From NCBI GenBank assembly GCA_000531095.1, contig HG799465.1:913915-977914 (forward strand): a stretch of 64,000 bases of DNA, given 5' to 3'. The stretch is from Gemmata massiliana. GTDB lineage: Bacteria > Planctomycetota > Planctomycetia > Gemmatales > Gemmataceae. The position numbers and the translations under genes are program-made. This document shows positions 16,104 to 18,994 of this stretch, piece after piece. Each line of letters opens with the position of its first letter. The first letter of the stretch is position 1. Under the pieces are notes generated by a model, which was not told where the DNA came from, did no database searches, and saw only the letters and a program-made list of their open reading frames with translations.

Positions 16104-18227
16104 TCACTTCGCTTCGATCAGTTTCAAGATCGCGTCGGCGAACGGGACCGCGTCGGGCGGGCCGCTCGCGGTGACGACCTTGCCGTCCACCGTCACGCCC
16201 GGTTTGTCCCAGGTCACATTCATCTTGTCCCACGGCAGGAACGGGTGCTTCTTGAAGAGGTGATCGCAGGGCGCGATTTTCTTCCCCTTCAGCACGCCGT
16301 GCGTGGCCAAAACACCTTGCCCCACGCAGATCGCCGCGACCGGTTTGCCCGCTGACCGCATCTTCTGGATCACCGGGCCGACCGTACCCGATGCGCGGCC
16401 CAACCCCATGTACTCCTCCGTGCGCTCGCCGCAGAAAACGATCGCCGAATAATCGGTCAGGTTCATGTTTGCTTCGAGGCGCACGTCGATGGGCACGTCG
16501 TCCCCGGGCGTACCCGGGGACGGGCGGGCGCGGTCCCCCTCGAACGCGGCGGTCACTACGGTAGCGCCGCGCTCCACAAAGCGGTTGCGCACGGGCAAAA
16601 AGTCGTCCAGCCAAACGCCGCTACTCGGCAACACAAAGAGGATCTTCACGCCCTTCTTTGTTGGAGGAGTGATCGCCGTTGGCGCGGTTGGGGAGGGTTT
16701 GCCCTTCTCACCCTTCTCGCTCTTTTCGCCTTTGTCACTCTTGGTTTGCGGCAAATCGGTTTTGGCGACCGCGGGCGGCTCGGTCGGCGTGTCACCCGCC
16801 TTCTTCTTACCGGTCACCACCACCGCAACCGCGATCGCGGCGAACAGGAACAGTGCTGCGGCCGCTCCTCCGATTACGGCCCGTTTCTGCTGCTGGCGCC
16901 GTGCGGACTTCTTGGATTTCTTCGGGCGCTTCTGGCGTTGGGTGTCGGTCAGTGTCGGGCCGCTCGTGATCGGGGGCGTATCGAACGCGAGTGACGCGAC
17001 CGGCGCGGGTGTGTGAACGGGAGCGACCGCGACCGCGTCCACGATCTCGAACACCGGTTCCTTCGCGGAATCGGACCGCGTGAACGGGAGCAGCGCGCTC
17101 GCCACTTCCGCCGCGGTCTGGTAGCGGTCCTCCAGCTTCTTCGCCATCATGCGCTCGATCACATCGGCCAGCGCCGGCTGTATTTCCGGGCGAACCGCGC
17201 GGATCGACGGTGGGGCTTCGCTCGTGTGGGCGAGCAGCTTATCGATGAGCGTGGTCGCGCCGAGGAACGGCGCTTTACCCGTGAGCAGGAAGTACAGCGT
17301 GCAGCCGAGCGAATAAATGTCGCTGCGGGCGTCGACGTCGTGCGAGTTCCGGGCCTGTTCGGGCGAGAGGTAGTCCGGCGTGCCCATGAGCACGTTCGGG
17401 TTCGTCACACCCACGTCCGCGCCACCGAGCGTTCTTCCCCCACCAAGTGGAAGTTCCGTGGTCCGCGCCGGGTCCATTACGACCGGGGCGTCGGCCTCGT
17501 CCGCCTGGGCGAACCGGGCGAGGCCGAAATCGAGCACCTTCACCTGTCCCTTGCGCGTCACCATCAGGTTCTGCGGCTTGATGTCGCGGTGAACCATCCC
17601 CTTTTCGGCCGCGTGCTGGAGCCCGAGCGCCGCCTGGCGCGCGAACACGCACGCCATCGGTACCGGGAGCGGTCCCTTCTTCGCGACCAGCCGATCGAGG
17701 CTGGTGCCCTCGATGAATTCCATCGCGAGGAAGTGCAGCCCGTCCGCTTCGTCCGCGTCGTGGTAGGTGACGATGTTCGGGTGCGTGAGCTTGCCAGCCG
17801 CCTTGAACTCTTTCACGAACCGCTCGACCGCGCTGGCCTTCGCCGTCAGGTGCGGGGCGACCACTTTCAGCGCGACGACGCGCCCCATCAGGCGGTGCTC
17901 GGCCTTGTACACGACCCCCATCCCGCCGGCCCCGAGTTCGCTGATGATGCGATAGCGCGGGTGGTTCGCTAACGCGGGGGGAATTTTGTCGCTCTTAGCA
18001 GTTGGGCTGGCCGTTGCGCCGTCGGCTACGGATTTCACAGTGGGAGGAGCGGCCACCGCAGCGCGGGCCAGATCCGCGAGCGAGTCCTCGGGTACGAACT
18101 TCAGCGCTTCGCCGCACGCCGTACACCCGGCCACGTGGTCCGCGACACCGGCCAACTCGGTCGACGACAGGTCGCCGCGTGCGAACGCGGCCAGGGTTTC
18201 CTCACGGGGACAAGCAGCTACGGGCAT
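16104..18227 (-). CDS. Membrane Ser/Thr protein kinase with N-terminal anti-sigma zinc motif and C-terminal DJ-1/PfpI domain
   Basis: The 707-residue protein has four parts. (1) Residues 6-42 form an anti-sigma zinc-finger motif, H31-x3-C35-x2-C38. (2) Residues 92-380 are a Hanks-type kinase: GAGGMGVVYKA, ALKVV (K121), HRDIKPQN (D215), DFG (233-235) and GTPDYLSPEQ are all intact. (3) A basic linker leads to a membrane segment near 452-472 and a Lys/Glu-rich spacer. (4) Residues 526-707, expected outside the cytoplasm, are a DJ-1/PfpI (class I glutaminase-like) domain with the elbow Cys in AAICVGQG (C634); the His that usually follows this Cys is Val here. The upstream frame is open, but the ATG at 18227 starts the zinc domain. 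An ECF sigma gene lies 182 bases upstream on the same strand, so this kinase is a candidate anti-sigma regulator of it. Confidence 0.9.
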   Translation of the reverse strand: MPVAACPREETLAAFARGDLSSTELAGVADHVAGCTACGEALKFVPEDSLADLARAAVAAPPTVKSVADGATASPTAKSDKIPPALANHPRYRIISELGAGGMGVVYKAEHRLMGRVVALKVVAPHLTAKASAVERFVKEFKAAGKLTHPNIVTYHDADEADGLHFLAMEFIEGTSLDRLVAKKGPLPVPMACVFARQAALGLQHAAEKGMVHRDIKPQNLMVTRKGQVKVLDFGLARFAQADEADAPVVMDPARTTELPLGGGRTLGGADVGVTNPNVLMGTPDYLSPEQARNSHDVDARSDIYSLGCTLYFLLTGKAPFLGATTLIDKLLAHTSEAPPSIRAVRPEIQPALADVIERMMAKKLEDRYQTAAEVASALLPFTRSDSAKEPVFEIVDAVAVAPVHTPAPVASLAFDTPPITSGPTLTDTQRQKRPKKSKKSARRQQQKRAVIGGAAAALFLFAAIAVAVVVTGKKKAGDTPTEPPAVAKTDLPQTKSDKGEKSEKGEKGKPSPTAPTAITPPTKKGVKILFVLPSSGVWLDDFLPVRNRFVERGATVVTAAFEGDRARPSPGTPGDDVPIDVRLEANMNLTDYSAIVFCGERTEEYMGLGRASGTVGPVIQKMRSAGKPVAAICVGQGVLATHGVLKGKKIAPCDHLFKKHPFLPWDKMNVTWDKPGVTVDGKVVTASGPPDAVPFADAILKLIEAK

Positions 18228-18409
18228 CGAACGGAACCTCTTCGTGGGCGAATCCCGGCACTCGGAGGAATAATGGCACGAAAATAGGAAGATCTGTCGC
18301 CATTCGGCGCGCGAGAACAAACAACGTGTCGATTCAGGCCCGACTCATAATTCTACGCACCGATTGCGTTCGGCTCTTCGCCCTTGACTTGAAACTTGAG
18401 ACTCACACC

Positions 18410-18994
18410 CTAACCCAACAGTCCCCCTGCTTCTTCGCGCAACCGGGCCAGGACGCGGGACTTTGCGATATAAACGGCGTTCGCGGTGACGCCGGCCTCG
18501 GCCGCGACTTCCTCCGCGGACAACCCGTCGAGGACGAACCGGCCGAATAATTCCCAGGTGCGCGCCTCGAAGTCGGGTTTGATGCGTTCCAGCAGCTTGC
18601 GGGTGATGTGGAGATCGTGTTCGCGCTCCCACGCCCGGGCGAGGTCGTCGGTCGGGTCTTCGAGGCGCGCGATGTAGGTTCCGAAATCGGACCCGCCTGG
18701 CGCGGTCGGCTGAACTTTACGGCCCTTCCACACGGTGCGGGCACAGTTGGCCGCGATCGCGCGGAGCCACCCGCGGAACGCCCCCGGTTTCTCGGGGTGG
18801 ACGAACTCCGGGAACCGGCGCACGACGACCGCCATGACCTCCTGGACGAGATCATCGGCGTCGGCCCCGCGCACGTTGAGGCGCTCGGCCCACACTCGGA
18901 TGAGCGGGGCATATAATTCGACGAGCCGCTCCCACGCGCCCGAATCGCGGGGGTCGCGGAGCCGCTCTAACAGTGTAGCCGATGTAACTTGCAT
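18410..18994 (-). CDS. ECF RNA polymerase sigma factor
   Basis: This 194-residue sigma-70 family protein shows region 2 (WERLVELYAPLIRVWAERL, DADDLVQEVMAVVVRRFPEF, FRGWLRAIAANCARTVWKGR) and region 4 (LDGLSAEEVAAEAGVTANAV, YIAKSRVLARLREE). It lacks region 1 and 3, as ECF sigma factors do. The kinase gene with a zinc anti-sigma motif follows on the same strand, matching the sigma/kinase pairs described for planctomycetes, in which the kinase is thought to control its sigma factor. I use the ATG at 18994 with GGGAGG just upstream; an in-frame GTG at 19006 is possible. Confidence 0.9.
   Translation of the reverse strand: MQVTSATLLERLRDPRDSGAWERLVELYAPLIRVWAERLNVRGADADDLVQEVMAVVVRRFPEFVHPEKPGAFRGWLRAIAANCARTVWKGRKVQPTAPGGSDFGTYIARLEDPTDDLARAWEREHDLHITRKLLERIKPDFEARTWELFGRFVLDGLSAEEVAAEAGVTANAVYIAKSRVLARLREEAGGLLG

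Follow-up and report, generated by a model that had tools for sequence, protein, structure and literature searches.

An ECF sigma factor gene of Gemmata beside a transmembrane kinase with an anti-sigma-like zinc module and an extracytoplasmic DJ-1/PfpI domain

The ECF43 sigma factors are known to be activated by phosphorylation at region 2.2 (PMC8999054, PMC13147305). In these ECF43/Hanks kinase systems, such as EcfP-PknT and EcfK-PknS, the ECF gene neighbours that of a membrane-spanning Hanks kinase whose extracytoplasmic domain varies, and the locus described here is likewise arranged. Planctomycete examples are also found in the groups ECF59, ECF61, ECF62 and ECF217, which are probably controlled by the neighbouring kinase, and it has been suggested that kinase-linked ECFs beyond ECF43 that carry the DxxD motif may act differently (PMC8999054). 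Many kinase-linked planctomycete ECF sigma factors do keep this acidic motif, which binds the polymerase; the ECF43 phospho-switch, therefore, does not explain them. Kinases with WD40 or TPR regions and a C-terminus outside the membrane are also known from the Planctomycetota (PMC11032199).

The window, i.e., the whole stretch of 64,000 nucleotides of Gemmata massiliana that was analysed, comes from a genome of 9.27 Mb. It carries an ECF sigma gene with a kinase gene downstream on the same (minus) strand, separated by a gap of 182 bases. The features of the locus are as follows, with the basis of each in brackets:

16104..18227, minus: transmembrane Ser/Thr kinase with a zinc anti-sigma-like N-terminus and a C-terminal DJ-1 domain, 707 aa (Pfam, alignment)
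18048..18227, minus: anti-sigma-like module, residues 1-60 (alignment, AF2, PDB structure matches)
18030..18041, minus: T63-V-K-S66, motif P-x-T-[VM]-x-S, candidate phosphosite (alignment)
17115..17954, minus: Hanks-type kinase domain, residues 92-371 (Pfam Pkinase, 154 bits; alignment)
16821..16877, minus: single transmembrane helix, residues about 451-469 (topology check)
16107..16658, minus: extracytoplasmic DJ-1/PfpI domain, residues 524-707 (Pfam, AF2, structure comparison)
16326..16328, minus: C634, Cys of the nucleophile elbow, followed by Val in place of the catalytic His (alignment, structure)
18410..18994, minus: ECF sigma factor, 194 aa (TIGR02937, Sigma70_r2)
18995..19064, no strand: divergent intergenic region with promoter-like boxes in both directions (alignment of 18 upstream regions)
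19065..20819, plus: divergent PAS-GAF-receiver (PAS-GAF-REC) protein, 584 aa (Pfam, alignment)

A preliminary description of this DNA had placed the sigma and kinase genes at 16104-18994, and the coordinates are correct, the start codon of the kinase being the ATG at 18227. Its reading of H31, C35, C38 and C634 was also borne out by the sequence check. The sigma factor matches the ECF profile, with sigma 2 and sigma 4, at 59.6 bits (TIGR02937, cut-off 42.9) and Pfam Sigma70_r2 at 40.6 bits, and, within the genus, 17 of the 18 remaining genomes encode an orthologue of 74-98% identity. A second ECF-type sigma gene of the window lies at 61517-62110 (plus). Across the divergent intergenic region, conserved CCCACAAGC...TAGACT and, on the opposite strand, TTGTGG...TATAAT-like boxes resemble promoters for the sigma and PAS-GAF-REC genes. 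Autoregulation by the ECF factor was rejected, as an alignment of 18 upstream regions revealed no conserved ECF-type promoter (GGAAC/CGTC) before the sigma gene. The PAS-GAF-REC protein has Glu at the phospho-Asp position of its receiver (FQEVKPPD), invariant in 14/14 aligned copies; the receiver is apparently fixed in a phospho-like state. Pfam found no histidine-kinase domain in this protein.

Relatives of the kinase were collected through a DJ-1-domain search for long frames with the order kinase, helix, DJ-1. The resulting 37 members comprise all 19 genomes of the window's genus and 18 genomes of other genera and families, namely eight more from the window's family (which includes Limnoglobus roseus), one from a second family (G099) and nine from three further families of the same class (f4, f5 and f6). 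With such a spread, the domain order is not a product of chance. A narrower DJ-1 scan of named genomes gave ten loci, Limnoglobus roseus among them. Elsewhere in the phylum, G474 (L143:9755-12577) has a more remote kinase that also ends in a DJ-1 domain; its N-terminus is different, and it was left out of the set. The DJ-1 kinases may all share one origin, which the AU test did not reject (p 0.24).

The kinase had been described as an intact Hanks kinase, and K121, H213-R-D and D233-F-G are indeed all present. The catalytic Lys, HRD and DFG are invariant in the 26 members from the window's family with a whole kinase domain (26/26), which places them among the Hanks kinases; the truncated member L057 keeps the N and DFG. 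Exactly one membrane segment was found in 28/28 members checked, with a positive-inside charge in 27/28, and the window kinase carries 11 K/R before the helix against 4 after it. Thus, the single helix and the charge bias place the DJ-1 domain outside, in agreement with the preliminary description, and a cytoplasmic DJ-1 domain was rejected.

DJ-1 domains are familiar from the cytosol, as stress proteins or enzymes, and DJ-1/PfpI proteins are dimers. The identity proposed for the C-terminal region of the kinase holds good at the level of both family and fold: DJ-1_PfpI (PF01965) matches residues 529-702 at 63 bits (cut-off 26.6), and the AF2 model (pLDDT 97.0) matches PfpI in Foldseek with an E-value of 2.8e-14, superposing on the PfpI-type 4hcj with Z 25.5 (rmsd 1.9, 171 aligned) and on PfpI 8r3n with Z 23.7. 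The active site presents a different picture. PfpI requires both Cys112 and His113 and has Glu22 in its active site, and C112A, H113A and H113E each abolish its methylglyoxalase activity (PMC11987610). The nucleophile Cys is kept in 26/37 members, the window and its closest relatives included, and is replaced in 11/37, some of them immediately downstream of the sigma gene (G025, G010, G026). The position beside it is Val in the window, as had been observed earlier; the catalytic Cys-His pair occurs in 0/37, with His seen only once (G364), there without the Cys. The position of the catalytic Glu is variable, being Asp in the window and Glu only in L142, in a column that is uncertain by one residue. 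The full enzyme signature of Cys then His, plus Glu, is therefore absent.

It could still be argued that the domain works outside the membrane as an enzyme or redox sensor through C634, as the Cys persists in most members and D18 of the window's DJ-1 domain could replace the catalytic Glu. This is improbable, however, as the Cys is lost from sigma-linked members too, His is never combined with it, and PfpI is inactivated by changes at either residue. C634 thus cannot be the common trigger; the preliminary proposal that the kinase senses through this residue is not supported, and Cys634 as a conserved redox sensor was rejected on conservation. The suggestion in the same description that the domain may bind rather than catalyse fits the data: as the Cys-His pair is missing from every member, binding is more likely than catalysis or the reading of oxidation. 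Most probably, therefore, the domain serves for binding or dimerisation.

At the other end of the protein, the zinc motif H31xxxC35xxC38 has the class I form Hx3Cx2C, invariant in 23 aligned members, with a conserved helix 4 ('DSLxxLxR') after it. C6, which is C or H in the relatives and is absent from the preliminary description, is a further likely zinc ligand. Helices are predicted at 9-17, 22-34, 36-42 and 47-59 (AF2, core pLDDT about 82). The zf-HC2 score is 18.1 bits on the protein (cut-off 22.2) and just above the cut-off, at 22.9, in a six-frame genome scan. With Foldseek, 11 of the 12 matches were RsiW, RslA or ChrR, each non-significant alone (E >= 2.5), and the best Z to anti-sigma structures was 5.1. 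The linker behind the module varies except for the P-x-T-[VM]-x-S motif, which many members of the genus with a linked sigma share; T63/S66 is a candidate phosphosite.

In 22/37 genomes, the kinase gene directly follows the sigma orthologue. The genus contributes 13 of its 19; the others are G041 and G074 from two further genera of the family, G099 from the second family, where the sigma (C51:13933-14496) immediately precedes the kinase of L090, and six from f4, f5 and f6 (G104, G376, G316, G393, G158, G364); for the most diverged sigmas (G041, G074, G099), orthology is judged by adjacency as much as by a weakly resolved part of the tree. Hence, the expected recurrence of kinase, membrane helix and DJ-1 beside ECF genes in planctomycete genomes was found. 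The claim that the pair is conserved stood in part, as other genomes keep it, but the link is looser than was thought: in five genomes of the genus (G012, G013, G015, G018, G022) the sigma gene sits beside the PAS-GAF-REC gene with the kinase elsewhere, and in G014 (L044) the sigma is gone from between the kinase and PAS-GAF-REC genes. There, helix 4 of the kinase module is lost too, and the best sigma match belongs to another sigma clade.

Within the genus, the tighter neighbour of the sigma is the divergent PAS-GAF-REC gene, and this counts against the explanation that is preferred here. The real partner of the sigma would then be the PAS-GAF-REC protein, with the kinase as a separate DJ-1 receptor placed downstream by chance. 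The five genomes with a distant kinase speak for such a reading. It is nonetheless very doubtful: in G014 the PAS-GAF-REC gene remains beside the kinase while the sigma is lost, outside the genus the neighbour of the sigma is the kinase (G041, G074, G099 and the six genomes of three families), and the zinc module is decayed in the genomes that lack the sigma.

In the window's family and the second family, the module is intact in 22/27 readable genomes (G034, cut by its contig, was left out), and all 22 have the sigma orthologue, unlinked in five of the genus and in G087 (67% identity). It has decayed in the other five, with helix 4 lost in G014 and G088 and the whole module gone in G051, G053 and G043. 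No cognate sigma was found in any of these five; their best sigma matches either fall into different clades or already have another zinc kinase as their partner. The decay took place in at least four separate lineages, a count made by hand in which relatedness is handled only by naming those lineages. The joint loss supports the view that it is the zinc module that holds the sigma. Together with the predicted four-helix order and the PDB matches, nearly all to anti-sigma structures, it bears out the earlier view that the N-terminus is anti-sigma-like. The zinc ligands persist in G014 and G088 despite the loss of helix 4, which counts against the sigma-holding reading. In the three genomes without the module, the survival of kinase and DJ-1 indicates at least one other output.

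Taken as a whole, the receptor kinase would be its own anti-sigma factor, a reading to which a probability of roughly 0.55 is given. The cytoplasmic zinc module would hold the sigma, and the catalytically incomplete DJ-1 domain outside would bind a ligand or a partner protein. Such binding would probably bring the kinases together, since DJ-1/PfpI proteins are dimers, and the ensuing autophosphorylation, possibly in the linker behind the module (T63/S66), would free the sigma. A one-protein pathway of this kind is plausible. With D-A-D-D intact in region 2.2, in the window and in its genus, the sigma needs no phosphorylation there for polymerase binding. The fused anti-sigma module would also explain how kinase-linked ECFs can keep the DxxD motif. 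Activation of the ECF43 type at region 2.2, where DxxD gives way to uncharged residues with Thr, was rejected.

A different possibility is that the kinase phosphorylates the sigma itself, as in PknT/EcfP, PknS/EcfK and ECF43 at large, and that the zinc module is a docking site only. The adjacency of sigma and kinase is the hallmark of phospho-activation; six ECF groups, planctomycete examples included, are probably controlled in this manner (PMC8999054), and in EcfK functional phosphosites also occur in the sigma 2-sigma 4 linker (PMC13147305). But DxxD, which has to be absent for the ECF43 logic, is intact here, and the loss of the module along with the sigma suggests holding, though docking predicts the same. 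Direct phosphorylation is regarded as rather unlikely, though likelier than the enzyme or redox-sensor reading and the PAS-GAF-REC reading.

The window's own genome offers a wider setting for such kinases. Scans of it counted 118 kinase-domain and 143 sigma matches, with 21 kinases directly behind a sigma gene. This position is held by 6/8 zf-HC2 kinases against 15/110 without zf-HC2 (Fisher p 4e-4). By domain scan, no other kinase of this genome has a DJ-1 domain. Other zinc kinases bear WD40 or TPR regions, so that the sigma/kinase pair described here belongs to a set of such pairs whose C-terminal parts are exchangeable.

In the distant genomes G104, G376 and G364, the gene directly behind the DJ-1 kinase codes for a secreted-type DJ-1 protein (L132:13437-17498, L133:5745-7706 and L140:9403-13278, respectively). 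That of G104 has five DJ-1 domains in tandem; that of G376 has one, along with cadherin and RTX-type repeats, and that of G364 has one with Calx-beta. Most of these domains keep the Cys-His, and the three proteins carry an LExRxxxS-type N-terminal motif, which is typical of secreted planctomycete proteins. Throughout the class outside the window's family and the second family, such proteins occur in 10/10 DJ-1-kinase genomes (that of G217, at a contig edge, being counted from its DJ-1 end alone) against 34/285 others (p 2e-9, a value that ignores kinship). In the window's family outside the genus, the figures are 3/8 against 3/68, and in the genus 0/19. In the organism of the window itself, therefore, the ligand cannot be a secreted DJ-1 protein of this type. 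Tentatively, one might picture an extracellular DJ-1 system in which a receptor kinase with an incomplete DJ-1 domain is paired with a secreted partner with intact ones, acting as ligand or reading the same compound, and in which the kinase signals to an ECF sigma dedicated to it by way of the anti-sigma module that it carries; the genus would have lost or replaced the partner.

The DJ-1 kinase is a new form of ECF/kinase signalling. The window sigma may belong to ECF59, ECF61, ECF62 or ECF217, and no description of an outer DJ-1 domain in systems of these groups was found in the literature searched. Open-licence literature on PfpI with Gemmata kinases yielded nothing, and that on DJ-1/PfpI with kinases or planctomycetes yielded no such receptor. 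As compared with ECF43, the zinc anti-sigma-like module is here part of the kinase, and the sigma retains DxxD, which the ECF43 members lack. A kinase with an anti-sigma module of its own would be a direct and testable answer to how this group of kinase-linked planctomycete ECF factors is controlled. The class I anti-sigma domains of ChrR, RsrA, RslA and RsiW have the same Hx3Cx2C at the end of helix 2 and start of helix 3, followed by helix 4 as is predicted here, and likewise lie beside an ECF gene, whereas the module here is fused in front of a protein kinase. The RsgI anti-sigma I factors of Clostridium thermocellum are similarly membrane anti-sigma factors with an outer sensing domain, controlling genes of secreted proteins (PMC12203970). 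They differ in having no kinase, in signalling by proteolysis and in having, as far as is known, no sequence relation. Lastly, the domain shares the fold of PfpI, YhbO and DJ-1D (Z up to 25.5) but, unlike them, is tethered outside a membrane kinase and lacks the catalytic Cys-His pair; if the reading proposed here is true, the DJ-1 domain takes its place as an outer receptor domain.
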